This document shows, piece after piece, positions 2,822 through 64,000 of a DNA stretch of 64,000 nt. The notes beneath the pieces were generated by a model, which was given only the letters and a program-made list of their open reading frames with translations, searched no databases and had not been told where the DNA came from. Source of the DNA: Apostichopus japonicus (Eukaryota > Echinodermata > Holothuroidea > Aspidochirotida > Stichopodidae); the NCBI RefSeq assembly GCF_037975245.1, contig NC_092578.1, positions 3,431,001-3,495,000 of the forward strand. Direction: 5' to 3'. Position 1 is the first letter of the stretch, and each line of letters opens with the position of its first letter. A program made the position numbers and the translations under genes.

Positions 2822-2866
2822 GTATATATATATATATATATATATTATATTTTTTATTTGTCCATA

Positions 2867-2900
<34 letters not shown>
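2822..2900. repeat. (TA)n microsatellite at outer edge of left arm
   Basis: Interrupted TA dinucleotide run. It lies at the outer boundary of the left arm of the palindrome. The right arm also ends in a long TA tract (19116-19312), so both outer boundaries coincide with TA-rich DNA. Confidence 0.9.
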
Positions 2901-2902
<2 letters not shown>

Positions 2903-2999
2903 TATATATCATAACTATATTAACTATGTATTTTCTAACAGAATCAAATCTTTAATACATAATCATATTAAAGACATAAAGTCTTGAAAACGGAAGGAA

Positions 3000-4019
3000 A
3001 TGGCCGAAACAACACCAACGCTCTTGACGGACATCACTGAGACGTTTCGGAACTTCACTTGGACCAATGAAACCGAGGAAGCAGGTGATGGATTACAGCC
3101 AGGAGGACTACCGCCTGGATGGACATGGGAAGACGTACTCTATGTGGTCTTTCTCCTGAGGATGAGACTATGGATAAGTTTTATTGGATTTGTTTGCAAC
3201 GTTATGGCTTTCTTAATACAGATTAAACTCAAAAGTTACCGCAAAACCCAGTTTATGTTTGGTTTTGTTCTGACAGTATCTGAAATGTTTTACTTATTTG
3301 CAGTGCTGGCAGAGACATATTATTACTACAATGAAATTCTCATTATTCCAAAGGTTTATCAAGCGATCGCCTTAGCAACGAATCTTCTTGCTTTATTTGC
3401 AATCATAGGTGTAGGGGTTGATCGCTATATGGCTCTGTGTGCGTTTCCCTTCAAATATAAAATCATAGTGACCGTCAAAAGATACGCAGCTGTGATCGTT
3501 GGGTTAACAGCCATCTCCATACTCTACGGTTTTGTGTTTACGCAGTTTTTCGCAAGCGACGATCCTGTAGTGTCGCAGCGTATTTTTATTGTTTTAAGTG
3601 TTTTGCTCTTCATTACCACGGTTACGTACATTGGTCTCTCTTTCTCATTGGTACGAGCATTCAGGAGCACCAAACTGGGTGACTCAATCAAGAAGGTTAG
3701 AATGCAACAAACCAAACGGCTGTTGTTCGCGTTTAGTCTAATACTGATAACAAACGGTATGTGCTATTTACCTCATAGCTTCCACTCGTTGTATATATCA
3801 CTTCAGCCGTTCGATCAGCGTTTTGGTATATTAGCAAATATCAAACTTGGTAACTGGTTTTACAACATCCGGGTACTTAACTCGACATTCAATCCGCTTA
3901 TCTACTGGTCAAACGTCCTGGTGCGTGAAATGAAATGGCCAAGTTGCTTTAAGGAAAGAGGAAAGAAAAGCAAGCCAGCAATTTCATCCATCAGCCGTAC
4001 GCAAACTAAAAATAAATAA
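3000..4019 (+). CDS. intronless rhodopsin-like (class A) GPCR, palindromic copy A
   Basis: A single uninterrupted frame encodes 339 residues. The extracellular N-terminus (1-45) has two N-glycosylation sequons (N18, N23). Seven hydrophobic segments lie at about 47-76, 84-107, 118-139, 161-183, 195-217, 239-259 and 284-305. Family marks are N67 in TM1, the D-R-Y triad at 141-143 after TM3, a C-Y-L-P variant of CWxP at 255-258 in TM6, and N-P-L-I-Y at 298-302 in TM7. A basic tail follows. Oddities: the usual Asp of TM2 is Glu (E95), TM4 lacks its Trp, and the Cys pair normally linking TM3 to extracellular loop 2 is absent. The ATG is preceded by GGAA and its context is shared with the second copy. 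The ligand is unknown. By family it should signal through G proteins at the plasma membrane. It is about 88% identical to the copy at 18014-19033. Confidence 0.93.
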   Translation: MAETTPTLLTDITETFRNFTWTNETEEAGDGLQPGGLPPGWTWEDVLYVVFLLRMRLWISFIGFVCNVMAFLIQIKLKSYRKTQFMFGFVLTVSEMFYLFAVLAETYYYYNEILIIPKVYQAIALATNLLALFAIIGVGVDRYMALCAFPFKYKIIVTVKRYAAVIVGLTAISILYGFVFTQFFASDDPVVSQRIFIVLSVLLFITTVTYIGLSFSLVRAFRSTKLGDSIKKVRMQQTKRLLFAFSLILITNGMCYLPHSFHSLYISLQPFDQRFGILANIKLGNWFYNIRVLNSTFNPLIYWSNVLVREMKWPSCFKERGKKSKPAISSISRTQTKNK

Positions 4020-6309
4020 TTTCTTGAAAGACGATTCCATCTTCACCTGAGTGGTGTATAAACATACAGCACACAAGGGGTTCCCCATACGGAATCGGAG
4101 TAAAACCAAAAAAAGGGGCGGGGGAGGGTTGGGGCTAGGAGGGTGGTTAAGATTTCGCTTGACTTTGCCTGTATAAACCGATACAATTCGAAGGTACAGT
4201 AGTAAAATTTACCAAGGCATTTGCCCTTTCCCTAATGCCACATTCAATAAATGCGTTTCCGTTAATTGCGTTTTCTGATACAATTTCTACATGTGAAGTT
4301 CCAATTGCTGTGATGAAAATGTTGTAATGATTAGATAAAAGTGGTATATATCTGCATGGTGTATGGATATCATATCTTAGTACAATGTATGTTTGGTGAC
4401 GTCATACTTTGGTCATTACATTGATAGGCCACATATACTGTTCGTTTTAGCCAGAAGGATAACGTATAAATGAAGCGTTACACTTAACAAGAAGTGATTT
4501 ATGCATCAAATTGCAAAGTGTTCTGTTGTCTTGTCATCTTGCTCAACAGTTTCAAGTAAGGTTCGGCGGAAATAGATACATACGAAGAAACAGAAAATAA
4601 GAACTTTCGGAATTCAATTTCAACTGGGTTTCCCGTATTTTAATGTCTTTGCGTTCTCACTAAAAACTTAAAACGAAATAACCACGATTTTGTTAGAATT
4701 ATGAAACACAACAAAGAAGAAATATCAAAGGTGCATTTGTTTTTCTTATGCGACGGTTAGCTGAAGAAAATCCTCGCCTGAATAAAAGTTAATACAAATT
4801 AACTAGTGGTATATAATCGGGGCAAACTTAATGTCTACCGCAGAATAGCGATTAAGAGTTTAGTATACGTCAAAACTAGGAAAAATTTGAAAGTCTTTGA
4901 AGCAGCAAAAATGGGTTATATAGATGCCACATTTCAAAAGTTTCTCTTTTCTTTTATATCTCAAAGAATATAAATTATCTAAGTGCATTAGTGAGTTTCA
5001 AATAACAGATTAAACTTCTTCTACATGTGAAGAACTAGTTGCCTTTATATCTGCATTGTAAACACTTTGTTCGCTTTTGTTATCCATTATTATCTATAGT
5101 CATCACTTCAGTTCCGTTCTATATACACTCCAATAGTTTAACTGTTATGCTTTATATAGTTTATATCTTTAAATCGACGCTTTGTTAAATTTTATTTTAA
5201 GTGGTTCATTAATCAAGTCATCTCCTCCACGACTAGAAACACAAAGTGGTTTATTTATTTCGAGAGAAGATAAAACGGCTCTTAAAGTTGCCTCGGAAAT
5301 TCAAGAAGATATTTAATGGGTCAAATAAATATTGGCATTATTCTTTTCTGGAATAAATCGTTTGCGTCAACTTGAGAGAAAGAATTGGTAACCTACTAGT
5401 TGAGCCCGAAGTCACGGTTAATATCAATTTAGTTGATTTCTCTGCTACAAGGACAAACTGACCATTGGGTCCTCGTCCCATGAAAGGGAAGGGGGTGGTA
5501 GAGGGGGGCACTAGCATCCTTAGCTTCCAAATTAAATCCGACGTTTGCGCACTAATGTTTGTTGCAACTCTGCAGGACTTTTGTAAGGTCTTTATGGGTA
5601 TCATGAAATGGCAACAAGAGGGGGAGAGGTGTAGTCCCCCACCCACCCCTCATTCACACGCACAACCCTATGACCATCGGGCTACGTCGGCCAGTTTTGG
5701 TAGCTACTGTTGATGAAGTTGAAAGGCTTTTGAAAGTACTAGAAATTATGTTGCAGTCAGTTATGAAATGCTAAGATTATGGTTTTGTTTTCTAGCTTGC
5801 AAAAACTCAAATATACGTTGCTGTATTTATTTGATATATTTCAGTCATATATTGTGGCGTATAATAATGCCTAATATTTTACCTGTAAATAATGCTATTG
5901 CCACATATTATTCCCCGTTGTATTTATTGACAGCTTTTGAAGTTTATTTAGAACACCTTTGCCGACGCTATTCATCTCAACTGATCGTTTCTTCTTGATG
6001 TTTAAAAACTTGCCAATTTGCGTGTTCCATGTATAAGATGACAACAAAAAAATGTCTATACGCTACGAAAATGCGAGAACCGATTGAAATAAAGAAATTA
6101 CTTGATCATTAACCCTGACTTGGTGGAAAATATTCCCAGATGGGGACATTGATTTGATCACTTACAATATCAATCCGTGTCCTGCAGTATATAATTTTGA
6201 TTAATTGTAACAAGTGTGGAGGTAGAATTTCATCGATATTAAATTTTAAATATGTTATATTTATGTGCTTTTAAGTTGTATCACAAATAATATATATGAT
6301 AACATTTAT

Positions 6310-6406
6310 AAAATATATAATAACATTATATATATATAAATATATATATATATATAGATATATATATATATTATATATATATATAAATGAAAATATATAT
6401 ATATAT

Positions 6407-6463
<57 letters not shown>

Positions 6464-6470
6464 AAAATAT
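6310..6470. repeat. (TA)n microsatellite in left arm
   Basis: Long interrupted TA tract. The corresponding site in the right arm (15606-15740) is also TA-rich but carries an extra SINE fragment. Confidence 0.9.
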
Positions 6471-8159
6471 ATTTATTTATTATTTTCAGTTATTATATGA
6501 TTTGAGCAGATTTCAATGAAATATTACATGTGCATTAAGTAAAGCTGTTCAGTATTGTCATAAAATATATTAAATACATAAACATTTGACATAAAACTTG
6601 GCCATTTTTCACAGAAAACTGGGTTACATGATCGAAGGAGGTGATGATCATGTTAATGGTAAACTAAAAGGCAATGATTTGGTGGCGCTATTCAAGTTCC
6701 CTTCCAATTCAAATGAACTTGGAAAAGAATTGGTGACGATGTTTTTACTGTGGGATAATTTTGTATCACGATACCACCAAGGAGAACGATGTTATGATTA
6801 GGTGTTTAGAAACGGAGAGGAGGGAGGGGGGGGGGTGGTTGGTGCCAGACATTCACACCCTAACCAGTCAATCCGGAAGAAGGCTACTTTCAAACAAAGA
6901 TTTATCATCGTAGGCACAAAGAATTTTTTTACATAGGCCTACGTTCGCCGAGGGGTATGGCAAGGTTTCTCACTAACCCACCTTATCTGTCCTTCATATA
7001 GACTCGTCCCAAAATAGAGAAAGACAAATGAATGGAGTATTGCTCATTCTGTATAATTGACATAATACTAGGATGAAGCCACGTAATTTTCGTGTACCAT
7101 GGACCGCACGGCATGTGTCCTATATAGCCTGTACTTCAAACTATGTTCAAGAGTGTCGTACGCCATTTAAGGTGTACAACCATAATTTAATGCAGATACA
7201 AACTCAAACATCGTTATTATTCTATGTAATAGAGATATTCGTCATATAAAAACTTCCCCAAACGGCTAAGAAATGTATTATGCCATTTGGGAGATTTCAC
7301 AGATTAGGATTAAGTGCTTGTTTCTTCGCACACACAAAGGCTGAAGACTTGATCAACTCTAAATATGACATCATCGAACCACATATGCTTCAAGTTTTAA
7401 CGTTCTTCTATATTAATGAGGAAACCTAAGCTTGAGTGGAAATTAATTCTACCTAATCCGAATTCCATATTTTATTTCACTTAAATTATAATTTCATTTC
7501 AACAAAATCACTGCTTTATACTAAAGTAGAATTATCAATTAACAAAGTACAATTTGACTTCAGTTGTCTTGTATTCAACTTAAATTTAGAACGGCCTGCC
7601 ATACAAACTTCATGCGGTACTCACGTACAGATGACATGATCATTGCTCGGTCCAATCCTATAATTAGCTCTTCTTTCTGGCTAATATTGAGAATCCTCCA
7701 ATGACAAATCATTTCTTTACAGACTTCTGCGTCTATGACGTCATGATAATACTAACGTAATAATCCACAAAAGAAGTTTTAGGCGATGATTAGTTTCTCC
7801 AAAGGCAATTCCTTAGCAGCGAGGTGTGAGAGGACCTCCCTGCAAACTTCAACGTCATCCATTTTCCGTTGCTTGTTATATGGTATAGCATACGCCCATT
7901 AAAATCCCCATTGACTTACACACTAACTCACAAAAGTAATGTGGTCTCTAAGTCTAGATAGAAGTACTCACTAGCTAAACGCTACCCATCACCGGATAGC
8001 TGACAAGCTGGCCTTTCATGGTACCATCAATTGTCCGTATCATGAGATTTTTTGCTATCAGAGTCTGAAGTTTTCGTCACTGTAAACAAACCTCTTCACT
8101 CAGTAGTAAACAATTCGCGTACGCTGCTTATGGGACTGCAAAATGGGTCTAAGATTGCC

Positions 8160-8487
8160 TCAATTGACCCAATTTTTGCACCTCATGTACTTCCATTCAA
8201 GCACTTCAACATGTAAGCCAGATCCTGATTGATAACGTATCAAAAGAGATGTTTTCCTACTGCAGTTTGGCACTTTTCCCTGAAATAGGAGAACATCCGG
8301 GCGGATTGATATAGACTCTAACAGGAGTATGCCACCATATGGTTGGCGGTACGCCATTTTGTTTGTGTTTAGCAGCGTACGATGCATGCGGTGATCGACT
8401 TCCACGTAAACATGGCACGTTAAAGTGTTTTGATGAACACCTGTGTATTTGAGTTTCACTGATATGTATAACTTTCATTCTATTCAC
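8160..8487 (-). other. degraded frame matching the arm-end ORF of the other arm
   Basis: This is the reverse-strand counterpart of 13614-13940. The reading frame is split: the first ~70 codons stay in one frame and the rest continues in another, so at least one indel separates the copies. No domain was recognised. It may be only a chance frame carried by the duplication. Confidence 0.35.
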
Positions 8488-8735
8488 TTCAATCCTTTGT
8501 TTCCTTTAACTGAATTGTTTCTTTCATTTCCGGAATGTACGTAAGACGCTATTTAAAGCTCTTTCATTGGTTAACGGATATATCGTGCATAATCCGTATT
8601 ACAAAACCTTCTGTTTACAATCAAAGCGCGATTTTCTCAGCAAAAATACTTCGATATACTGACGTTACATGTAATATCGTTTCAGGTTGTATTATATAAC
8701 GTCATTTCATGTAGTACTTCTCGTCTTATCACGTC

Positions 8736-9095
8736 ATGCCAAGCCCAGCCACCCAACTCCAAAAGCCACGCTAAGCCACCTCACTTCACTTCACCGCACT
8801 CTATGTCAACTCAACCCAAGCCACCCACGCAACTCCACGCCATGCAACGAAAGGCCCCTCCACGCCAAAATCCACTCGGAGGCACGTCACGCCAAGCCAG
8901 GCAATTGCACTACACTCTGTGTGTCACACCACTTGGCGCCAAGTCAAACCACGCCACGCCACCCAACTACATTACACTCCACTCCGCTTCATGACACTCC
9001 ACTCCACACCATGTCACTCCACTCCACACCATGTCATGTCACACAAGGACGCGCCGCTTTATCCAATGCCACTCCACGCCACGTCAAGTTACGTC
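8736..9095. repeat. degenerate CAC-rich minisatellite
   Basis: About 350 bases of loosely repeated words such as CCACTC, CCACGC and CACACCATGTCA, strongly C-rich and G-poor on the plus strand. Several overlapping frames are open only because of this composition. I do not regard them as genes. Confidence 0.8.
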
Positions 9096-9604
9096 ACGGC
9101 AGATGAAGTTACGTCCTTATATGCTGGAGATGACGTAGGGCTGAAGATACGGTTTCTTAGGTTAATTCAATATTACACGGTCACAAAATAATTGTTAATA
9201 AACAGTTGGAATGATGAAACATATTGGTAAATTACTTAAATTCATTTCTTAATATAAAGCAAACATATCAATTTAGCCGCAGAATTTAATTTCCATGGTG
9301 AAAGGTGTTGACTTTTTTTTCTTTTCAAAATCTTCATAATGTTATTTTTCTTAAAAAAATACATTAACCCATGTTAATCCTGAAAGTAACATGTTATTAA
9401 AATTCATGACAAACAAACAATTCATAAACCGAAAGCAGCCGAAAATAAAATAGCGTTCCGGTTATATATTTGCAAGCTAAGCAAAAGGATCTATATCATA
9501 TCATATCAAGCAAGATATTTTTTTCATCACAAAGAAAGGTTACGGCATAGTTCGTATTTTATAGATAAATCAATACATTAAAACAAAAATTACGGAATTC
9601 TATT

Positions 9605-9675
9605 CCTTAAGAACAAGGAACAGAGACGAACAGAGTACAAAGTTTTGTACTCAACCTCTGTTCCTTTTTCTAAGG
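9605..9675. repeat. perfect-looking nested hairpin
   Basis: The outer stem pairs 9605-9625 with 9656-9675 (CCTTAAGAACAAGGAACAGAG against CTCTGTTCCTTTTTCTAAGG). The inner stem pairs 9633-9640 (GAGTACAA) with 9645-9652 (TTGTACTC). It could be a small fold-back MITE or a structured RNA. Nothing shows transcription. Confidence 0.6.
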
Positions 9676-9992
9676 ATTTACATAACGTAAAAATAATTAC
9701 ATATCTTCATTTAAAATTGTCTTTTTTTTTAAAACATTGACTTCTATACATAAAGGGCGCCATTGGTTTTGTTTAACATATTACAAATAAATGCAACAGC
9801 GCCACCCGTTCCTCCGCTGTTTCATTTCATTCTGTTGTGACGTCTAAGTCAGCCGTCATGGTACTTGGTACTCACCCAGGAAAGAACCTGGGTACGAAAA
9901 CCAAACTACCGAACGACTGATCTGCACTCAACCCAGTCCCCTTGCATCGGGACTGTCACTGTGTGATCATCAAGGTGTCAACTTACTGTCGG

Positions 9993-10405
9993 TCGTATGG
10001 AAAGCCATTTTAACATTTAATCGGGAATTTTAGATATCTGAAATTGTTCCTTATTTCAGATATCTGAAATTGAATTCGAGATATCTGAAATTGAATTCGA
10101 GATATCTGAAAATGAATTCGAGATATCTGAAATTCTATTTCAGATATCTGAAATTGAATTTCAGATATCTGGAATTGAATTCGAGATATCTCGAACTGAA
10201 TTTCAGATAGGCTATCTCGAATTCAATTTCAGATATCTGAAATTCTCTGGTATTTCGAGATATCTGAAATTGATTATAAGATATCTGCAATTATTTGAAG
10301 ATATCTGAAATAAATTGGAGATATCTATAATTTAATTTGAGATATCTGAAATTATTTCGAGATATCTGAAATTCCTTATTAAATGTTAAAACGGCTTTCC
10401 ATACG
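9993..10405. mobile_element. TIR-bounded element made of palindromic GATATC repeats
   Basis: The ends are inverted repeats of about 28 bases with one mismatch. The left end begins CGTATGGAAAGCCATTTTAA and the right end closes with the reverse complement (...TTTCCATACG). The flanks carry GTCGG on both sides, a possible short target duplication. The inside is an array of about 15-20 units of roughly 20 bases built on GATATCTGAAATT and GAATTC. The units occur in both orientations, so much of the element is self-complementary. It has no coding capacity, consistent with a non-autonomous element. Confidence 0.75.
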
Positions 10406-11417
10406 GTCGGAATACATTTCACTTCGTTGCATCCAGTTCGATATTCATCTGAACAACAGCTTTGTTTCAGCAGGCCTGACAAGAGGCGAGGGGTACAACC
10501 CTTGGGACTAGTGTTTAATGAGGTGGCCAGTAAAGAAAAACTTGTTTTAATTTTAATGGTAAACCTCTGGAAAATGAATATAACGTAAAAAATGCACCGT
10601 TAACATATGTTGTCTACGGAACCAGAGCTGGCTTTCGACGGCTCTGAGTAAGAGCAGAACAAGAAGACCAGAAGTACTTGAAAATATGGTCCTAAACAGT
10701 AAAACCTTAATAATTAATAAATAATAAATGAATCCGAAGTGAGGTATATTATACAACTGTTATGCCGTACCGTATATAGGGATAGCAGAAGGATTTTAAG
10801 CCTCTAATGTTCGGTTAATCCGTTTGGATCGGAGTGAGGGTTGAGCCGAACGAAGAGAAATATCGAACCAAATTAACATATAAATACAGAAAATTGATTA
10901 ATTTTGGGAATCCGTTTGAACTAAAAAATATATAAATAAATAAAAAACCATGAAGTTTCAGATGAAGAAAGTCTGAAAGCGTGCTACAGTTACCCAAATT
11001 TGTCTAAAAATGGTATAAAACCCAAAATGTGACGATGAGAGGACGGCAGTTTGATTTGGTGGCGCTACAGAACTATTGTCCATGTCAGTAAATACTTTAC
11101 AGAGAAAGAAACAACATATTCGAGCATATTGAAGGAATGGGACTCGCCAACCTATAATATTCAATAGCAAAAAGTTCAACTTGAATAATTAGTGACAGAT
11201 ACGTTTGATTTTATAACTCATTGCTTCATTTTTTGTTTTATTATTTGATCAATAGTGTTAAGGAACCTTTAAATTAAAGGACTGCTTAAATTTCGATCGA
11301 TCAATATGTCACATGGCGACCATGGAAAATACGACAGAAACGGGAGCTTCTTAGGGTATTTCCCTTACTGAAAATCTCTCTTCAACGTGTGAGATGTATA
11401 GAAATACTTTAACGTAC
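10406..11417. other. spacer, no gene seen
   Basis: AT-rich sequence with short frames only. I looked on the minus strand for the C-terminal exon of the SLC23 gene that should follow 11418 and did not find it. Confidence 0.5.
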
Positions 11418-11492
11418 CTGGCATAGTCTTATCTAATACGGCAGCGATGACCACGCCCACAAACATGTTGGTGCTCAGAAGAACGGTTAAAT
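11418..11492 (-). CDS. SLC23-type transporter exon (late TM segment)
   Basis: On the minus strand a 75-base exon lies between an acceptor (TTTAACCAG at 11493-11501) and a donor (GTACGT, 11417 downwards). It begins with two bases of a codon and ends with one. The peptide reads L-T-V-L-L-S-T-N-M-F-V-G-V-V-I-A-A-V-L-D-K-T-M-P. This matches the TM segment of SLC23/NCS2 transporters that ends in 'LDNT(V/I)PG'. It belongs with the exon at 12988-13223. The exon or exons that should lie between them were not found, so the gene may be a relic or have a very divergent middle. Confidence 0.65.
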
Positions 11493-12014
11493 CTGGTTAA
11501 ATACCTCCAAATCTGAATAAAAATTCGGAATTTTAATTAAACACTGTACCTTGACATTGATAGCGGTGTGTTTTTCTTTACAATGAATCCCCCACTCCCT
11601 CCTGCTTATCCACCCTTCCACCTCCTTTCCCCTTTCCTTGGATTTGGAAAACATTCTTTGATAAAGGGACTAAAGTGAAGTGAGCAGAAACTGTTTATAA
11701 CAGGTGCATCTTAATACACATCCCCTACCCCTCCCACTCTCCCACCCCCTCCCACTCTCCAATCCGCACTCCACCCATCTCTCCCATATCGAGATAATTA
11801 TGAAGCAGAAAATTTCACTGTACAGCAATTCACGAAGAAGCATAGCTTTGTTTAATTGTGTCGAAATTCAACAACAAAAAACTGCCTTTCCTTTAGCTTA
11901 TTTAAAAAATAACAACATGTGAACACTTAGATTGTCAAAAAAAAAAATTTAAAAAAATGTGAATGTCAAACAGGTCTACTCCTACCCGAAGACTAAACAT
12001 ATATATATATATAC

Positions 12015-12075
<61 letters not shown>

Positions 12076-12987
12076 TTCACCGGTATCTAATATAACAGCA
12101 CATTAGACATTTCACCGTGGGTACCTGCTGATTGCATCAATGGGGCGCTGAGGGGCAGCATTAAACCCTTCCCAAGGAGAGAGGCCTACCTTTTATCTCG
12201 ATCACTCTCTGTATACATACTAAGTATTTATAAGAGGGAGTGTTAATAAATTTACAAATACTATTCGATCATTTCAGCGATGGATGGTGTTTGTATTTCA
12301 TCCTTCGGTAACATGTTACTGTTATTCAGCCACAAGAAAAGTTGGCTTCAATAACCTTATCTTATATGCATAGGGCCATGGGTTAACGAGGTATCTGTTA
12401 ACATCTTAGGGGGTACAATTGATAAACTGCACCATTGTCAAATTGAATCAACTATATATGTACGTTCTGTTAAACTAAATAACCCATACAAAGCCTACTT
12501 ATATATAGAAAAATGCACCGTTCTAAGCAGTTTGAATTTTTAACTGACAAACGATTGTAATGCTTTTTAATGTTTTGGAGTTATTTGGCTATCAGAACTC
12601 AAACTTAACGACTGGAAAGCGATTGACTTTGATCACAACATACCGATGCCAAATGAGATAGCAAAATTACGTGTACGCTTTAATTTGAAACTGAGTTTTA
12701 GCTTGAAAAGTCTCCGAAATATAGTGTACTTATACCTGCGATTCCTTGTTGATCACTAGTTGTATATACAATTTCGATTTTTAATTATTGAAGACGAGAT
12801 GTTTTGAATCATATTTTCACAACTGGCACATATAGATTTAGATATGCAAATTCTTTGAAGATCATGTAAACAATATAGATCAGCGCATTAGGACCAATAT
12901 AACAGCGCCCTCAAAAAGAAACGAGTGAAGCTCCTCATATAAACATATTGTAAACACATTTAGTTCTATACAAATAAACGAACATAC
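11493..12987. other. sequence between the two SLC23-like exons
   Basis: This contains C-rich runs (11580-11640, 11720-11790), a (TA)n tract (12000-12071) and AT-rich DNA. The conserved middle part expected in an SLC23 gene (after the T-K of the signature) was not seen on the minus strand. Confidence 0.5.
12000..12071. repeat. (TA)n microsatellite
   Basis: Nearly pure TA run. Confidence 0.95.
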
Positions 12988-13223
12988 CTTTGTTATACCG
13001 ATGGCGCCTATGTTCTCGCTTTGAGATGTCGCTTCCATTCCAAATACCCACATTCCTGCCAATTGTGATCCAACGCCCTCTATTCCGATGCCTATGTTCA
13101 TAACGTGTTCGGCAGGTGGTGGCACGCCATATATTCTTGCGCATGCGTAGTAGTCACCGATGGATTCAATCATAGAGGCTAGGAGAGCCGCGTCTAGAGT
13201 AAAGATGGGTATCCCCCATTGAA
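12988..13223 (-). CDS. SLC23 / NCS2 (nucleobase:cation symporter-2) transporter exon
   Basis: On the minus strand a 236-base exon is bounded by CATCCCCACAG (acceptor) and AAAG|GTATGT (donor). It encodes 78 residues. They include I-E-S-I-G-D-Y-Y-A-C-A-R and P-P-P, hallmarks of SLC23 ascorbate/nucleobase transporters, and end in the family signature E-N-I-G-A-I-G-I-T-K (general form [QEP]NxGxxxxT[RK]). The family moves ascorbate or nucleobases across membranes with a cation gradient. Oddity: the glycine-rich substrate-site stretch, usually GTGNGTTS-like, reads V-F-G-M-E-A-T-S here, so key small residues are replaced. Upstream exons would be expected above 13223, but the right palindrome arm begins at 13592, so the 5' half may have been lost when the palindrome formed. 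Confidence 0.8.
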
Positions 13224-13591
13224 CTGTGGGGATGAAAATAATTTAATGCTAGCATATAATCATAGTAGTTAAGTCCAACTGCACGCCAACTGACTTTTGA
13301 CCATCTCGGGGGTTCAACAGCAGGGAGACGGAGCCGGGGAGGTGCACTCGGGTAATTTGGTGTTCCCAAGTTTTGCGTTTAATTCAAATACCCTTTTTGT
13401 GGTTAAAGAGTAAACATTACTATTGTTCATGTTTGATATGAAAATGTGGTATTTTCTTGAGAACTGCTCATATGTTATACCCATTTTATGAGACATAAAC
13501 AAAAATTGAAAAGTGCCTATTTTTGGAAAACCATTAAAATACTGAATGAAACTATTTAAAATGGATGAAACTGGATGAAACTATTTATAAG
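13224..13591. other. short spacer next to right arm, no gene seen
   Basis: Mixed sequence containing a GGATGAAACT duplication at 13562-13580. I recognise no exon. Confidence 0.5.
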
Positions 13592-13613
13592 TTAAAGGTA
13601 ACAAAGAATTGGA

Positions 13614-13940
13614 ATGAATAGAATGAAAGTTATACATATCAGTGAAACTCAAGTACACAGGTGTTCATCAAAACACTTAAACGTGTCATGTTTACGTGGA
13701 AGTCGATCACCGCATGCATCGTACGCTGCTAAACACAAACAAAATGGCGTACCGCCAACCAGATGGTGGCATACTCCTGTTAGAGGCTATATCAATCCGT
13801 CCGGATGTTCTCTTATCTCAGGAAAAGTGCCAAAATGCAGTATGAAAACATCTCTTTTGATACGTTATCAATCAGGATCTGGCTTGCATGTTGAAGAGCT
13901 TGAATGGAAGTACATGAGGTGCAAAAATTGGGTCAATTGA
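13614..13940 (+). CDS. uncharacterised 108-codon open frame at the arm end
   Basis: An open frame of 108 codons begins ATG-AAT-AGA-ATG and ends in TGA at 13938-13940. The same region in the left arm (8160-8487) is frameshifted, so the frame is not maintained in both copies. No domain, signal or membrane segment was recognised. It is probably not a gene and is listed because it is the longest frame in the arms apart from the GPCR. Confidence 0.2.
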   Translation: MNRMKVIHISETQVHRCSSKHLNVSCLRGSRSPHASYAAKHKQNGVPPTRWWHTPVRGYINPSGCSLISGKVPKCSMKTSLLIRYQSGSGLHVEELEWKYMRCKNWVN

Positions 13941-15605
13941 GGCAATTTTAGACCCATTTTGCAGTCCCATAAGCAGCGTACGCGAATTGTTTACTTCTGA
14001 GTGAAGAGGTTTGTTTACAGTGACGAAAACTTCAGACTCTGATAGCAAAAAATCTCATGATACGGACAATTGATGGTGCCATGAAAGGCCAGCTTGTCAG
14101 CTATCCGGTGATGGGTAGCGTTTAGCTAGTGAGTACTTCTATCTAGACTTAGAGACCACATTACTTTTGTGAGTTAGTGTGTAAGTCAATGGGGATTTTA
14201 ATGGGCGTATGCTATACCATAAAACAAGCAACGGAAAATGGATGACGTTGAAGTTTGCAGGGAGGTCCTCTCACACCTCGCTGCTAAGGAATTGCCTTTG
14301 GAGAAACTAATCATCGCCTAAAACTTCTTTTGTGGATTATTACGTTAGTATTATCATGACGTCATAGACGCAGAAGTCTGTAAAGAAATGATTTGTCATT
14401 GGAAGATTCTCAATCTTAGCCAGAAAGAAGAGCTAATTATAGGATTGGACCGAGCAATGATCATGTCATCTGCACGTGAGTACCTCATGAAGTTTGTATG
14501 GCAGGCCGTTCTAAATTTAAGTACAATACAAGACAACTGAAGTCAAATTGTACTTTGTTAATTGATAATTCTACTTTAGGATAAAGCAGTGATTTTGTTG
14601 AAGTGAAATTATAACTTTAGTGAAATAAAATATGGAATTCGGATTAGGTAGAATTAATTTCCAGTCAAGCTTAGGTTTCCTCATTAATATAGAAGAACGT
14701 AAAAAAACTTGAAGCATATGTGGTTCGATGATGTCATATTTAGAGTTGATCAAGTCTTCAGCCTTGTGTGTGCGAAGAAACAAACACTTAATCCTAATCT
14801 GTGAAATCTCCCAAATGGCATAATACCTTTCTTAGTCGTTTGGGGAAGTTTTTAATGACGAATATTTCTATTACATAGAATAATAACGATGGTTGAGTTT
14901 GTGTCTGCATTAAATGATGGTTGTACACCTTAAATGGTGTACGACACTCTTGAACATAGTTTGAAGTACAGGCTATATAGGACACATGCCGTGCGGTCCA
15001 TGGTACACGAAAATTACGTGCCTTCATCCTAGTATTATGTCAATTATACAGAATGAGCAATACTCCATGCGTTTGTCTGTTTCTATTTTGGTACGAGTCT
15101 ATATGAAGGACAGATAAGGTGGGTTAGTGAGAAACCTTGCCATACTCTGTGGCGAACGTAGGAATTTTTCTTTGTGCCTATAATTATGATAAATCTTTGT
15201 TTGAAAGTAGCCCTTTTCCGGATCCACTGGTTATGGTGTGAATGTCTGGCACCAACCACCCCCCCCCCCCTCCCTCCTCTCCGTTTCTAAACACCTAATC
15301 ATAACATCGTTCTCCTTTGTGGTATCGTGATACAAAATTATCCCACAGTAAAAACATCGTCACCAATTCTTTTCCAACTTCATTTGAATTGGAAGGGAAC
15401 TTGAATAGCGCCACCAAATCATTGCCTATTAGTTTACCATTAACATGATCATCACCTCCTTCGATCATGTTACCCAGTTTCCTGTGAAAAAATGGCCAAG
15501 TTTTATGTCAAATGTTTATGTATTTAATATATTTTATGACAATACTGAACAGCTATACTTCATGTACATGTAATATTTCACTAAAATCATGACCTAAATA
15601 ACTGA

Positions 15606-15740
15606 TATATATATGTATATATATCTATATATATATAAATGAAAATCGTAATGAGTTGGAAAATCAAGAACAGTGAAAAAACTTTCAGCCTCCACCGGGA
15701 TTCGAACCACGGGCCTTCCCGTATATATATATATATTATG
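15606..15740 (-). repeat. tRNA-derived SINE fragment inside a TA tract
   Basis: Read on the minus strand, 15696-15710 gives a pol III B box (GTGGTTCGAATCCCGG), preceded by GGAAGGCCC and followed by a short body ending about 15640. It is flanked on both sides by TA repeats. The equivalent place in the left arm has only TA repeats, so this insertion came after the duplication or was lost on the other side. Confidence 0.65.
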
Positions 15741-18013
15741 TATTATGTTATTATATATTTTATAAATATTATCATATATATTATTTGTGATACATGAAGA
15801 AACTTAAAAGCACATCAATTTAACATATTTAATTTCGATGAAATACTACCTCCACACTTATTACAATTATTCAAAATTAGTATACTGCAGGACACGGATT
15901 GATATTGTAAGTGATCAAATCAACATCCCCATCTGGGAATATTTTCCACCAAGTCAGGGTTAATGATCAAGTAATTTCTTTATTTCAATCGGTTCTCGAA
16001 TTTTCGTAGTGTATAGACATTTGTTGTTGTTGTCATCTTATACATGTAACACGCAAATTGGCAAGTTTTTAAAACATCAAGAAGAAACTATCAGTTGAGA
16101 TGAATAGCGTCGGCAAAGGTGTTCTAAATAAACTTGAAAAGCTGTCAATAAATAAAACGGGGAATAATGTGGCGATATCATTATTTACAGGTAAAATATT
16201 AGGCATTATTGTACACCACAATATATGACTGAAATAAATCAAATAAATACAGCAGCGTATATTTGATTTTTTGCAAGCTAGAAAAAACAAAACCATAATC
16301 TTAGCATTTCATAACTGACTGCAACATAATTTATACATTAAAAAGTCATTCAACTTCATCAACAGTAGCTACCAAAACTGGCCGACGTAGCCCAATGGTC
16401 ATGGGGTTGTGCGTGTGAATGATGGGTGGGTGGGGGGACTACACCCCCCCCCCTCTTGTAGCCATTTCATGATACCAATTAAGACCACACACATTTACAC
16501 CACACATTTACACAAGTCCTGCAGAGTTGCAACAAAACTTGTGCGCAAACGTCGGATATGATTAGAAAGCTAAGGATGCTAGTGCCCCCCCCCCCCCTCT
16601 AACCCTCCCTCAATGGGACGAGGACCCAATGGTCAGTTCGTCCTTGTAGCAGAGAAATCAACTGAATTGATATTAACCGTGACTTCGGGCTCAACTAGTA
16701 TGTTACCAATTGTTACCCATAAAATATCGTCTTGAATTTCCGAGGCAACTTTTAGAGCCGTTTTATCTTCTCTCGAAATAAATAAACCACTTTGTGTTTC
16801 TAGTCTTAGATGAGATGACTTGACTAATGAACCAATTAAAATAAAATTCAACAAAGCGTCGATTTATAGATCTAAACTATATAAAGCATAACAGTTAAAT
16901 TATTGGAGTGTATATAGAACGGAACTTAAGTAATGACTAAAGATAGGCCTAATGGATAACAGAAGCGAACAAAATGTTTACGATGCAAAAATAAAGGCAA
17001 CTACTTCTTCTCATGACAAAGAAGTTTAATCTATTATTTGAAACTCACTAATGCACTTAGATAATTTATATTCTTTGAGATATAATAGAAAAGAAAAACT
17101 TTTGAAATGTGACATCGATAACCAAAGTTTTGCTGCTTCAAATACTTTCAACTTTTTCCTAGTTTTAACGTATACTAAACTCGTTATTCAGCGCTAGACA
17201 TTAAGTTTGCCCCGATTATATACCACTAGTTAATTTGTATTAACTCTTATACAGGCGAGAGGTTTCTTCAGCTAACCGTCGCAGAAGAAAAACAAATGCA
17301 CCTTTGATATTTCTTCTCTGTTGTGTTTCATAATTCTAACAAAATCGTGGTTATTTCGTTTTAAGTTTTTAGTGAGAACGCAAAGACATTAAAATACGGG
17401 AAACCTAGTTGAAATTGAATTCCGAAAGTTCTTATTTCTGTTTCTTCGTGTGTATCTATTTCCGCCGAACCTTGCTTGAAACTGTTGAGCTAGATGACAA
17501 GAACAAGAACGTTTTGCAATTTGATGCATAAATCACTTCTTGTTAAGTGTAACGCTTCATTTATACGTTATAATTCTGGCTAAAACGAACAGTATATGTG
17601 GCCTATCAATGTAATGACCAAAGTATGACGTCACCAAACATACATTGTACTAAGGTATGATATCCATACACCATGCAGATATATACCACTTTTATCTAAT
17701 CATTACAACATTTTCAACACAGCAATTGGAACTTCACATGTAGAAATTGTATCAGAAAACGCAATTAACGGAAACGCATTCATTGAATGAGGCATTAGGG
17801 AAAGGGCAAATGCCTTAGTAAATTATAATACTATACCTTCGAATTGTATCGGTTTATACAGGCAAAGTCAAGCGAAAATCTTAACCACCCTCCTAGCCCC
17901 AACCCTTTTCCCGCCCCTTTTTTTTGGTTTTACTCCGATTCCGTATGGGGAACCCCTTGTGTGCTGTATGTTTATACACCTCTCTGATGAAGATGGAATC
18001 CTCTTTCAAGAAA

Positions 18014-19033
18014 TTATTTATTTTTAGTTTGCGTACGGCTGATGGATGAAATTGCTGGCTTGCTTTTCTTTCCTCTTTCCTTAAAGCAACTTGGCCATTT
18101 CATTTCACGCACCAGGACGTTTGACCAGTAGATAAGCGGATTGAATGTCGAGTTAAGTACCCGGATGTTGTATAACCAGTTACCAGTTTTGATAGTTGTT
18201 AATAAACCGTAACGCTGATCGAACGGCTGAAGTGATATAAACAACGCGTTGATGCTATGAGGTAAATAGCAAATACCGTTTGTTATCAGTATTAGACTAA
18301 ACGCGAACAACAGCCGTTTGGTTTGTTGCATTCTAACCTTCTTGATTGAGTCACCCAGTTTGGTGTTCCTGAATGCTCGTACCAATGAGAAAAAGAGACC
18401 AATGTACGTCAACGTTGAAATGGAGAGCAAAACACTTACAACAATAAAAATACGCCGCGGCACTAGAGCCGCGTCGCTTGAGAAAATATGCGTAAACACA
18501 AAACCGTAGAGTATGGAGATGGCTGTTAACCCAACGATCACAGCTGCGTATCTTTTGACGGTCACTATGATTTTATATTTGAAGGGAAACGCACACAGAG
18601 CCATATAGCGATCAACACCTACACCTATGATTGCAAACAAAGCCAGAAGGCTCGTTGCTAAGGCGATCGCTTGATAAACCTTTGGAATAATTATAATGCC
18701 ATTGTAGTAATAATAGGTCTCTGTCAGCATTGCAAATATGTGAAACATTTCAGATACTGTCAGAACAAAACCAAACATAAAGTGAGTTTTGCGGTAACTT
18801 TTGAGTTTAATCTGTATTACGAAAGCCATAACGTTGCTAACAAGTCCAATAAAACCTAACCATAGTCTCATCCTCAGGAGAAAGTCCACATAGAGTTTGT
18901 TTTCCAATGTCCATCCAGGCGGTAGTCCTCCGGGCTGTAATCCATCGCCGGCTTCCTCGGTTTCATTGGTCCAAGTGAAGTTCCGAAACGTCTCAGTGAT
19001 GTCCGTCAAGAGCGTTGGTGTTGTTTCGGCCAT
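18014..19033 (-). CDS. intronless rhodopsin-like (class A) GPCR, palindromic copy B
   Basis: A 339-residue single-exon GPCR, inverted partner of 3000-4019 and the same length without indels. Shared: residues 1-42, the D-R-Y segment with intracellular loop 2 (about 139-180), loop 3 (225-253) and the whole tail from 291 on are identical. Different: about 42 residues, clustered at 43-72 (TM1 region), 97-113 (TM2/extracellular loop 1), 182-214 (extracellular loop 2/TM5) and 254-287 (TM6/loop 3/TM7). Like copy A it has Glu in place of the TM2 Asp, C-Y-L-P in TM6 and N-P-L-I-Y in TM7, and lacks the TM3-loop 2 cysteine pair. The intact frame and the pattern of change argue that both copies are functional receptors with different ligand specificity. 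The ligand is unknown. Confidence 0.93.
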   Translation of the reverse strand: MAETTPTLLTDITETFRNFTWTNETEEAGDGLQPGGLPPGWTLENKLYVDFLLRMRLWLGFIGLVSNVMAFVIQIKLKSYRKTHFMFGFVLTVSEMFHIFAMLTETYYYYNGIIIIPKVYQAIALATSLLALFAIIGVGVDRYMALCAFPFKYKIIVTVKRYAAVIVGLTAISILYGFVFTHIFSSDAALVPRRIFIVVSVLLSISTLTYIGLFFSLVRAFRNTKLGDSIKKVRMQQTKRLLFAFSLILITNGICYLPHSINALFISLQPFDQRYGLLTTIKTGNWLYNIRVLNSTFNPLIYWSNVLVREMKWPSCFKERGKKSKPAISSISRTQTKNK

Positions 19034-19115
19034 TTCCTTCCGTTTTCAAGACTTTATGTCTTTAATATGATTATGTATTAAAGATTCGATTCTGTTAGAA
19101 AATACAAATTTTAAT

Positions 19116-19119
19116 ATAG

Positions 19120-19154
<35 letters not shown>

Positions 19155-19249
19155 CCTATAGTCAATATAGTTATAATAAACATAAAATTATTTATAAATA
19201 TATATATATCTATCAATATATATATATATCAATATATATCAATATATAT

Positions 19250-19312
<63 letters not shown>
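19116..19312. repeat. (TA)n microsatellite at outer edge of right arm
   Basis: Long interrupted TA tract. It includes short repeats of the type ATATATATCA near 19215-19255. Confidence 0.95.
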
Positions 19313-20896: not shown

Positions 20897-22011
20897 AACA
20901 CTGCGTTATTGCAATAGCTTGAAGATCAATCTATTTGATTAATTTTGTATTGCAATCGTTTGTAGTTATAAAAGACCAAATTAGAGAGAGAGAATTAAAG
21001 GTACATTTTCTTACCTGACATCGCGTTTCTTCTTAAGTTTATAGCCCTATATATGTGCCTTATATACAAGGGCGGCGGAACCGGGGGGGGGCACAGGGGG
21101 CACGTGCCCCCCCCCCCCACTTTTCCTCAGGTTAAATATGTGCCCTTTTTCTACATAAAAATTGAGGTGTCTCAAGTTAGCAAGAGGCCAGGAAACCAGA
21201 ATGAACACTCGGGAAGGGCCGTTTCCGGCCATCTGAGGGGTTTGTAAAACCAAAAATTTTCTTGTACGCTCCGCGCCAACCGATGGTGGCGCTCCGCTCA
21301 GATAGTCGTGCATACAACTTTGCAAATCCTGGCTACGCCCCTGACTTTTAATGAATTTCTGTGGGTCAAACTCAAAGCTATTTCGAATGGAAAAAAATTG
21401 GTTAAGGTATTAACAAGAAATAAACTCTAATTCGGAAGATTCCTACATTAGCAACTAGCATGATTTCACCTCATTTTGTTTCAAAAGAAAACTTGTTCCT
21501 TGTTTCCCAATTTGCACATTGGATATTGCAGTGCTAGTATGCATATTTTCCTTGAGGGGGGAGGGGGGGGGACGTTGATGGAGTGATGTGTATACCCAAA
21601 TAAGTTAATACAATAAGAGTTATCAAGGGTACTAAATATAAGGCTGCATCAGTCCAATCGAATTTCTGCAAAGTGCCCTTTGATGTCGGTGCCCCCCCCC
21701 CCCCAGATTAAAAGTGCCTCCGCCGCCCTTGCTTATATATGCTTACTTTCCAATCCGGGCTTCGAATGACAGTTGTTGTATTTCTTCCAGACAGCTCAGA
21801 ATCCTTTCACAAGCTGATTACTGTTTAGACTGTCTGAGAGGACTCTCTCACTCCGTAGAACAATCAACCGATTTCGCCTTCACATTTGCCTCTATCAGCA
21901 TAATTATATAGTTCCAATAGATTACCTCAAGTTACTTCAATGTAAATTCATGTAGTTATTGCCGTCATATATTTCTGATTCTTCTGTAATTTTACAAGAG
22001 TTAAAAGAATA
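20897..22011 (+). repeat. left arm of fold-back repeat
   Basis: It pairs in reverse complement with 22527-22973. Without the 673 bases of inserted element plus target duplication (21059-21731), the arms are nearly equal, about 445 bases each. Paired landmarks are AACACTGCGTTATTGCAATA (20898 on) with the end near 22970, and TAAAAGAATA near 22005 with TATTCTTTTA near 22530. Confidence 0.88.
21059..21739. mobile_element. hAT-like non-autonomous element with 8-bp target duplication
   Basis: The element (21067-21731, 665 bases) begins CAAGGGCGGCGGA and ends TCCGCCGCCCTTG, a 13-base perfect inverted repeat. It is flanked by CTTATATA on both sides (21059-21066 and 21732-21739). The other arm of the fold-back repeat keeps the empty site with one CTTATATA (22799-22806 in reverse), so the insertion is directly demonstrated. 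An 8-bp duplication and a CA-GGGCG-like terminus are typical of the hAT superfamily. Inside is a second terminus-like word, CTGGCTACGCCCCTG, ending at 21343, which suggests one element nested in or fused to another. No transposase is encoded. A 5'-truncated sister copy lies at 62748-63382. Confidence 0.88.
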
Positions 22012-23603: not shown

Positions 23604-24638
23604 ATGACGGATATAACACCAACACGGGGCATCAACGACACGTTGCAAAGTTTAAAGACGACGGAATCACCATTTCGCCTTAATCATCCCGGCGGCTTTC
23701 CAGTTTGGACAGAGGAAGGATTGCGTCAAGTGGTCTTATCACAAAAGTTACGTCTCGGTCTATCGTTCGTAGCATTGCTATTCAATGTTGTTGTTCTCTT
23801 GATTCAAGTCAAATTAAAAACCTTCCGGAGAACCAAATATCTGTTCGGTTTGTCTCTCAACGTCGCGGATTTGGTATTTGCTATATCTGTTCTGCTTGAG
23901 ACAGGTTTCTATCTCTCAAACAGAACACCGATCCCATCGTTCCTTGGAGCTTTGATAGCGGCATCGAATTTACAAGCGTTTCTGTCCATAATCGCTGTAG
24001 CGCTTGACCGATATTTAGCCCTCTGTATGTTTCCTCTGAACTATAAATACATCATTACAACAAAGACATATGGCGTCGTGATAGGCATAATTTGCGGCGT
24101 TTCTTTGTCCTACGGTTGTCTCACTACCAGGATTTTTAGCGTTGGTGACCCGTTTGCTCTTCTGTTACACAGCCTGAGTACCTCCTTGCTGATTCTGATT
24201 TCTTTGACTTTATACGTCCTCGTGGGAATCTCACTACTACGATCGTTTCGAAAGCTCCGCCTCCCTCAGTCGGTAAGGAAGACGAGATTACGTCAGACGA
24301 AACGAATCATGTTAGCATTCGGTCTTATTCTTCTAACAAACGACGTTTGTATTATACCCGAAAGTTATTTTGGATTTTGGTTATTTCTTCAACCTCCTTA
24401 CGAAAGATACGGCCTGATGTCAAATATCATCATTGCGAATTGGTTCTATACAACTCGGACTTTAAATTCAGCTATAAACCCGCTTATATACTGGTGGCAA
24501 TTTTTATGGCGAGAATTCTTTTCTGAGGACTCCCTGCGATCGAATTTCCCGATTTTACGCAGAGACTGCTCAAACGACGCAAAGAATCCGAGTGAAGAGG
24601 CAGCAGGTCCACATGGTACCTCTTTAACGAATTGTTAA
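23604..24638 (+). CDS. intronless rhodopsin-like (class A) GPCR, divergent paralogue
   Basis: A single-exon frame of 344 residues. It has an N-terminal ectodomain (1-38), then seven hydrophobic stretches at about 41-70, 78-102, 113-135, 155-175, 187-212, 235-255 and 276-300. It shows N61 in TM1, the canonical TM2 Asp (D89), D-R-Y at 135-137, I-P in TM6 and N-P-L-I-Y at 292-296. It shares with the palindromic pair the A-L-C-x-F-P stretch after D-R-Y, Q-T-K-R before TM6, L-Q-P in loop 3 and N-W-F-Y-x-x-R-x-L-N-S before TM7, so it is the same subfamily at lower identity. It also lacks the usual TM3-loop 2 cysteine pair. Unlike the pair it keeps the TM2 Asp. The start follows AAGAATA. The ligand is unknown. 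Confidence 0.93.
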   Translation: MTDITPTRGINDTLQSLKTTESPFRLNHPGGFPVWTEEGLRQVVLSQKLRLGLSFVALLFNVVVLLIQVKLKTFRRTKYLFGLSLNVADLVFAISVLLETGFYLSNRTPIPSFLGALIAASNLQAFLSIIAVALDRYLALCMFPLNYKYIITTKTYGVVIGIICGVSLSYGCLTTRIFSVGDPFALLLHSLSTSLLILISLTLYVLVGISLLRSFRKLRLPQSVRKTRLRQTKRIMLAFGLILLTNDVCIIPESYFGFWLFLQPPYERYGLMSNIIIANWFYTTRTLNSAINPLIYWWQFLWREFFSEDSLRSNFPILRRDCSNDAKNPSEEAAGPHGTSLTNC

Positions 24639-62747: not shown

Positions 62748-63382
62748 GCACTTTTAATCTGGGGGGGGGGGGGCACCGACATCAAAGGGCACTTTGCAGA
62801 AATTCGATTGGACTGATGCAGCCTTATATTTAGTACCCTTTATAACTCTTATTGTATTATCTTATTTGCGTATACACATCACTCCATCAACGCCCCCCCC
62901 CCCCCAAGGAAAATATGCATACTAGCACTGCAATATCCAATGTGCAAATTGGGAAACAAGGAACAAGTTTTCTTTTGAGACAAAATGAGGTGAAATCATG
63001 CTAGTTGCTAATGTAGGAATCTTCCGAATTAAAGTTTATTTCTTGTCAATATCTTAACAAATTTTTTCCATTCGAAATAGCTTTGAGTTTGACCCACAGA
63101 AATTCATTAAAAGTCAGGGGCGTAGCCAGGATTTGCAAAGTTGTATGCACGACTATCTGAGCGGAGCGCCACCATCAGTTGGCGCGGAGCGTACAAGAAA
63201 ATTTTTGGTTTTACAAACCCCTCAGATGGCTGGAAACGGCCCTTCCCGAGTGTTCATTCTGGTTCCCTGGCCTCTTGCTAACTTGAGACACCTCAATTTT
63301 TATGTAGAAAAAGGGCACATTTTTAACCTGAGGAAAAGTGGGGGGCACGTGCCCCCTGTGCCCCCCGGTTCCGCCGCCCTTG
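62748..63382 (-). mobile_element. truncated copy of the 21.1-kb hAT-like element
   Basis: Reverse-orientation copy of 21067-21731, closely similar along its length, including the poly-G/C runs, the inner CAGGGGCGTAGCCAGG word (63116 on) and the terminus CCGCCGCCCTTG ending at 63382. The opposite terminal ~15 bases are missing, replaced by unrelated AT-rich DNA at about 62747, so no target duplication is present. Confidence 0.88.
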
Positions 63383-64000
63383 TACTCATATCCCATAGCC
63401 CATGCATATCCCATAGCCCCTACCCCCATTAAAGAGCACAAACACGGTGTGCATCAATGTTCTAACTAACAGATTCACGGTATATTGATTTAGATTTTGC
63501 TGTGACACATGTATTTAACATACATTTTAAAACTGGCAACGTATTATAACGTTGTAAGCAATGTTGTACTTCATATGGTAGGCGGCCTATGCATGAGTGT
63601 AGTCTTATAACTTTAAAAACAAACAGACAATGACTATTAGTTTTCCTTTGCAGTTTGTCACATTTACAATTTACTGCACATTTTGCGTATTCGGAACTGT
63701 TACACGTTCTGCCGTGAATTTGTTAACGTTTGACCAAGCCATATAAGACTCCTTCAACTTTCAACTATAGCACACCGTGCCATTATAGACACACCTCTAA
63801 CGACCCTTCTCAGACAAAGATATCGATGATAATCGCTGAGTGGCTAACCAACAGATCACTTCTAATCATGGGAAGTTTTAAAAGAAGACAACACATTAAA
63901 TTGAGTAATCAAACAGGGAAGCTATACAAGTGTTTGTTTGTATGTATGTATGTATGTTTATAACCGCACTTGTCTCATCGTTGGTTAAAGAATAACAAGA
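63383..64000. other. window end, no gene seen
   Basis: It opens with two CATATCCCATAGCCC units and contains a GTATGTATGT run near 63940-63956. No exon recognised. Confidence 0.5.

Follow-up and report, generated by a model that had tools for sequence, protein, structure and literature searches.

Here we describe two closely related genes for G protein-coupled receptors (GPCRs), referred to as A and B, in a window of 64,000 nucleotides from the sea cucumber Apostichopus japonicus (contig NC_092578.1, positions 3,431,001 to 3,495,000 of the forward strand; the window is this whole stretch, and positions below are counted from its first letter). An earlier note had read the pair as the product of a recent inverted duplication followed by strong diversifying selection on the ligand-facing surface of the receptor, with the signalling face held constant. 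Copy A (3000..4019, plus strand; C18:3434000-3435019 in the genome) and copy B (18014..19033, minus strand) are each one open frame of 339 amino acids, and when A is aligned with the reverse complement of B, the two 1020-base frames show no stop and no insertion or deletion (indel). Both proteins match the class A family 7tm_1 of Pfam (PF00001; E 1.3e-08 for A and 5.2e-08 for B). A third GPCR copy in the window, C (23604..24638, plus strand), is 38% identical to A and belongs to the same array. Scores against the 7tm_1 profile of 35.1 bits for A, 33.1 for B and 52.2 for C, all above the Pfam cut-off of 30.5, place these genes in class A (rhodopsin-like), and A carries the class A motifs DRY (residues 141-143) and NPLIY (298-302, corresponding to NPxxY). 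A structure model built from three sequences displays seven long helices, but with a mean predicted local distance difference test score (pLDDT) of only 52.5, and this low-confidence model was used for helix limits only.

A and B lie within the arms of an inverted duplication, which a comparison of the window with itself by blastn delimits at about 2824..8511 (left arm, plus strand) and 13590..19213 (right arm, minus strand). The arms, of ~5.7 kb each, are separated by a spacer of ~5.1 kb (8512..13589), and both have their outer ends in (TA)n tracts, with a tandem repeat at 2823-2909 on the left and a tract at 19121-19311 on the right. A putative 3' splice site of an intron in the 5' untranslated region, ATTTTCTAACAG (2930..2941, plus strand), was read by eye ahead of A and is kept in B (19092-19103, minus strand). 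In non-coding arm DNA, 193 of 3956 aligned bases differ (4.9%), rising to 5.9% in 4020-5250. Identity is nearly complete in one stretch of both arms, 7697..8103, with identical runs of 181, 143 and 81 bases; the second to fifth longest identical runs between the arms are longer than expected at the 99% level when breaks are placed at random, and this stretch is likely to be a tract of arm-to-arm gene conversion. The spacer also contains, on its minus strand, an open stretch (12880-13242) that matches the Pfam family Xan_ur_permease (E 4.6e-12) and is probably one exon, or a fragment, of an SLC23-type transporter.

In a marine animal of high heterozygosity, two haplotypes could pass for arms that are ~5-6% apart, and the earlier note had itself named an assembly or haplotype error as a possible source of the differences. 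We judge this barely credible: the 109 kb of sequence examined are free of N and form part of a 20.4 Mb contig, the copies have distinct outer flanks, the arms end inside unlike sequence, and four related open frames are mutually different.

The receptor array and the chimeric copy P2

The genome was searched with A (671.6 Mb in 35 contigs), scoring only the best candidates, so that counts are lower bounds. There are at least 13 matches genome-wide, at least seven of which, E, F, P3, P2, A, B and C, fall within 3390874-3455518 on contig C18 and have open frames. A and B are part of this array of related class A GPCRs, seven genes on a single chromosome. No relatives were found in the viral_contigs or genome_contigs scans. 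Protein identity to A is 98% for P2 (L002; C18:3420025), 92% for P3 (L003; C18:3402606) and 88% for B. Among the matches listed, the closest coding relative of A is P2, which stands in direct orientation, on the same strand as A; the recent inverted duplication that had been proposed is therefore not the whole story of these genes.

P2 is itself composite. The coding sequence (CDS) has 15 sites that unite A with P2 and P3 with B, against 2 that unite A with B and P2 with P3; in the flank (4401-6260) the corresponding numbers are 0 and 28, a conflict between CDS and flank with p 4e-10. Where A and P3 have different bases, P2 agrees with A at 25 of 27 positions in 3342-4016 and with P3 at 75 of 80 in 4401-6260. 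Farther upstream (1500-2910) it sides with A at 26 of 35 sites, while a patch at 2911-3126 is P3-like at 5 of 6. P2 is thus a chimera of an A-type gene and a P3-type 3' flank, and the stretch in which it turns from mainly A-like to mainly P3-like, the presumed crossover zone, is 4241..4471 (A coordinates, plus strand), 0.2-0.45 kb past the stop codon. Consistent with this picture, the interval between P3 and P2 is repeated between P2 and A in largely collinear form, its three longest undisturbed blocks being 98.5, 98.8 and 99.0% identical, although the repeated interval also has insertions, weaker blocks (~96%) and one block out of order. A hybrid standing between its two parents, with the inter-parent interval doubled, is the layout left by an unequal crossover between P3 and A, and such an event is the best explanation for P2.

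There is a parallel with the red/green opsins, in whose tandem arrays unequal crossing over yields chimeric genes. In both systems a hybrid lies between two parents and combines the left part of one with the right part of the other; the difference is that here the switch falls just past the stop codon, which leaves the hybrid with a largely A-type protein and a P3-type 3' flank. P2 and P3 are consequently 0.3-0.5% apart in 4501-6260 but 3.5% apart in the CDS because the gene body of P2 is A-like, and, had they been read as a lone pair, they would mimic an extreme burst of selection. Reshuffling between copies can therefore pass for diversifying selection when one pair is read alone.

Amino-acid change in the gene as a whole

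The CDSs of A and B differ at 59 bases in 50 codons, 42 with replacements and 8 silent, in a codon-by-codon count that was repeated and that agrees exactly with the figures of about 42 and about 8 given in the earlier note. Its further statement that two blocks hold no silent difference is equally accurate per codon: all 13 differing codons at residues 181-216 (extracellular loop 2 and transmembrane segment (TM) 5) and all 11 at residues 254-287 (TM6, loop 3 and TM7) are replacements. A count of steps by the Nei-Gojobori method (NG86) finds 2 silent steps in the first block and 1 in the second, hidden inside double-change codons. In 3543..3860 (plus strand), which corresponds to codons 182-287 of A and runs from extracellular loop 2 to TM7, there are 27 replacement and 3 silent steps, and 13 sites join A with P2 and P3 with B. 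Copy C was considered as a donor of the variable block, which a by-eye reading of the alignment did not support. The proportion of differing replacement sites (pN) between A and B is 0.18 in residues 181-216 and 0.16 in 254-287, against 0.060 in the whole gene, so the non-coding flanks do diverge less than the blocks, as had been noted. The two proteins have no difference at residues 1-42, 129-181, 224-253 and 288-339; the N-terminus, the D-R-Y/loop 2 region and the tail are thus identical, as claimed, and loop 3 is nearly so, S223N being the sole change in the third intracellular loop.

Striking as it looks, a raw count of 42 to 8 can sit close to the neutral ratio, coding DNA having about three replacement sites per silent site. 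When 59 random changes were placed in A, the mean outcome was 42.0 replacement and 13.7 silent codons, with 8 or fewer silent codons in a fraction of 0.049 (0.059 in a re-run), and the ratio is hardly beyond chance. The ratio of replacement to silent rates (omega, or dN/dS) for A and B is 1.04-1.32 by the Nei-Gojobori method, depending on the weight given to transitions (for one such weight, the bootstrap range is 0.71-2.32; Fisher p 0.37), and 1.03-1.10 for the whole gene by maximum likelihood (ML) under codon models (p 0.78-0.93 against omega = 1). With the silent rate set to that of the flank, omega becomes 1.25 (p 0.16) or 1.02 (p 0.88). The M1a-M2a site test on A, P3 and B was non-significant (2dL, twice the log-likelihood difference, 2.60; p 0.27); these were the three lineages of all three-lineage ML analyses, from which P2 was excluded because it is a recombinant. 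Omega is significantly above 1 neither gene-wide nor in the site-class test, and the gene as a whole changes its amino acids at the neutral rate. The strong diversifying selection proposed for the pair is not supported at this level, and is overall suggestive rather than shown. According to the earlier note, it would be refuted if no window had a dN/dS greater than 1; some windows do exceed 1, but neither of the two named blocks shows a significant excess when judged by the silent sites within it (Fisher p 0.10 and 0.12).

That the frames are nonetheless under constraint is established by their indels, none in the CDS against 26 events in 4051 aligned bases of flank, from which ~6.5 would be expected in the CDS. 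The absence of nonsense changes between A and B is a weaker sign in the same direction (P 0.083). Replacements are also milder than those drawn at random in these codons (BLOSUM62 scores average 0.26 against -0.33, P 0.008), which implies that the protein is constrained even where it is changing.

The extracellular and cytoplasmic halves

The replacements are unevenly placed. The extracellular half holds 30 of the 42, where neutral nulls predict 12-15, and its ratio of replacement to silent codons is 30:2 against 12:6 in the rest (Fisher p 0.019). None of 4000 simulations with uniform changes reached a share of 30 of 42, and a fraction of 0.0003 did so among 4000 simulations that carried the clumped mismatch pattern of the flank. 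With helices split at their midpoints, 25 of 99 residues are replaced in the outer TM halves and 8 of 102 in the inner halves (p 0.001); in the loops, the figures are 5 of 17 on the extracellular side and 1 of 72 for the cytoplasmic loops and tail. The split was drawn from generic GPCR topology and helix midpoints after the list of replacements was known, which makes its p-values generous, but the contrast between inside and outside persists when the split is shifted or predicted helices are used. The claim that the signalling face is held constant is in keeping with these numbers, which show a constrained cytoplasmic face and replacements gathered in the extracellular half.

Whether the outer half is also under positive selection depends on the silent rate to which it is compared. 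At 0.122, its pN is higher than the divergence of the flank (Poisson P 0.00015 for a flank value of 5.9%, and smaller for 4.9%). ML with one silent rate shared by both halves gives, for A and B, an omega of 2.42 for the outer half (p 0.009) and 0.50 for the remainder (p 0.09; difference p 4e-7), and for A, P3 and B, 2.35 and 0.67 (difference p 2e-6); the range of the outer value in such shared-rate tests is 2.28-2.42 (p 0.005-0.009). Along with the two blocks in which every differing codon is a replacement, this speaks for strong diversifying selection on a ligand-binding surface after a recent inverted duplication. Several results weigh against it or against any adaptive part in the change of the outer half. 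First, there are the gene-wide omega of 1.0-1.1, which taken alone also fits no selection on amino acids, the non-significant M2a test and the mildness of the replacements. Second, with its own silent rate the outer half has an omega of 1.77 (p 0.16, three lineages), or 1.92 with model-derived helix limits (p 0.086), the range of such tests being p 0.09-0.16. Third, when the unchanged N-terminus is counted as outside, omega falls to 1.87 (p 0.058), and with model-derived limits to 1.83 (p 0.04) or, with its own rate, to 1.37 (p 0.36). Fourth, clumps of flank differences overlaid on the gene match the density of the replacement cluster with P 0.10-0.15, and in the pair P3/B omega is 1.11 in the rest of the gene too. 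Fifth, the numbers of replacement and silent codons are 7:6 for A/P2, 27:7 for A/P3, 42:8 for A/B, 26:7 for P2/P3, 42:8 for P2/B and 42:7 for P3/B, so that the closest coding pair, A/P2, departs from A/B (Fisher p 0.03).

The changes are not ligand-facing in the sense that had been proposed. Generic pocket positions, those that commonly touch ligands in class A receptors, with a residue numbering anchored on motifs, are replaced at 5 of 29, compared with 28 of 172 other TM positions (p 1.0), and we therefore rejected an enrichment of replacements facing the pocket; the extracellular residues 1-42 are moreover the same in A and B. The data favor the outward half and not the pocket as such. Strong diversifying selection on the ligand-binding surface is, on balance, rather doubtful.

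A different reading of the same contrast, to which we give a chance only a little short of even, is relaxed constraint, in which the extracellular half would merely tolerate change after duplication while the cytoplasmic half is kept, without positive selection. The gene-wide omega of 1 and the mild replacements fit it, and the replaced positions also vary among eight paralogues at a greater distance (pairwise identity averaging 0.217 against 0.363, p 0.0019; columns with fewer than six of the eight outgroup residues were dropped, which kept 52 of 54 replaced positions, 23 of the 54 being not polarisable). Within the outer half, however, the family does not vary more at replaced positions than at others (p 0.48), the replacement rate there is about twice that of the neutral flank and omega exceeds 1 under a shared silent rate, and an older pair of the array, E/F, whose silent sites are nearly saturated, has an omega of 0.14. 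For the outer half, we regard moderate positive selection and simple relaxation as about equally probable.

The array also invites a reading as a mosaic, in which gene conversion would have made the conserved segments alike and the blocks rich in replacements would be tracts with a longer history. The CDS differences are strongly clumped, to a degree that none of 5000 shuffles reached, CDS and flank disagree in their site patterns, as set out for P2, and overlays of the flank pattern give P 0.10-0.15 for the densest block. An older tract should nevertheless hold silent differences, and the outer half has 2 silent codons to 30 replacement codons. Furthermore, residues 1-42 (3 silent, 0 replacement) and 115-181 (4 silent, 1 replacement steps) have diverged but been held, not homogenised, and the tracts would need to match receptor topology (P 0.0003). 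We consider this reading improbable.

The reading that we prefer, with a probability of about 0.68, is that A and B both work and belong to a young, unstable array of class A GPCR genes, each with a single open frame; the array is being reshuffled, and in its receptors the inner half is held while the outer half is changing. Tandem and inverted duplication would enlarge the array, and unequal crossing over together with gene conversion would reshuffle it. Once a gene has been duplicated, purifying selection would hold the cytoplasmic half, the N-terminus and the tail, so that copies probably keep one coupling partner, while the extracellular half would take replacements at or above the neutral rate, and the ligands of the copies probably come to differ, by drift or by selection. 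We infer that part of the excess outside reflects moderate positive selection (omega ~2), beyond relaxed constraint alone. As far as can be inferred from sequence, the copies are most likely environmental or internal chemoreceptors that diverge in ligand, in an array that would gain, lose and hybridise copies.

A disulphide between the top of TM3 and extracellular loop 2 is common, though not universal, in class A. The cysteines of A are at residues 66, 147, 255 and 316, with none near residue 117 or in loop 2, and B, P2 and P3 likewise have no cysteine at the TM3 top or in extracellular loop 2; the usual disulphide cannot form in these four proteins. A more speculative extension, which we hold to be unlikely, is that these genes represent a little-studied echinoderm class A clade without this disulphide in which positive selection would act on the extracellular half immediately after duplication, crossover and conversion would pass extracellular cassettes between copies, and the cytoplasmic half would stay fixed. 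If true, receptors would be re-aimed on an unchanging signalling base.

Known receptor families and other features of the window

Several features recall the expanded rhodopsin-class GPCRs of echinoderms, such as the surreal-GPCRs of sea urchins, the ApORs of starfish and the odorant receptor (OR)-like genes of sea cucumbers: single-frame class A genes, chromosomal clusters, an echinoderm genome and lineage-specific expansion. A cluster of 12 class A receptors in 140 kb is described in an echinoderm (PMC5442662), and echinoderm OR-like receptors are said to be mostly single exon and in tandem arrays (PMC7042368). Single open frames and clustered copies in an echinoderm genome were likewise found here. 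However, the two OR motifs named in PMC7042368, LxxPxYxxxxxLxxxDxxxxxxxxP and MAxDRYxxxCxPLxY, occur in none of the 12 proteins tested, and these genes are therefore not placed in the OR-like family. The receptors studied there are reported to have omega below 1, unlike the youngest copies here, whose omega is ~1. Clusters of the vertebrate vomeronasal receptors V1R, in particular V1Rstrep of strepsirrhines, also combine an array of single-exon GPCR genes, duplication and claimed positive selection; they belong to another GPCR family, and selection was tested there on many sequences and reported mainly in transmembrane regions, in a study that names recombination as a possible source of false positives (PMC3914689).

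Birth-and-death evolution of receptor arrays is already well known, and its rapid operation in this array is real. What the locus adds is a clean echinoderm example, with four close copies, one demonstrable chimera and a sharp contrast in replacements between inside and outside.

Elsewhere in the window, Rfam and tRNA scans gave no match. Two stretches of the plus strand (33164-33433 and 34551-34994) are serine carboxypeptidase exons (Peptidase_S10), the second just below the Pfam cut-off. A 0.65 kb element is present in two inverted copies (21065-21717 and 62748-63384), which are 95% identical and 41 kb apart, and is likely to be a young transposable element. At 37519-38777 there is a tandem repeat with a 397-base unit, 3.2 copies and 95% matches. 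In the genome, COX1 is found as one stretch on contig C35 and as five pieces on C29, a contig that could be a nuclear copy or else a further mitochondrial one. Provided that C35 comes from the same animal, its gene points to an echinoderm: it matches vertebrate COX1 closely, and in a comparison with the best-matching solved COX1, AAA corresponds to Asn at 9 of 9 positions and AGA to Ser at 4 of 5, as in the mitochondrial code of echinoderms and flatworms.

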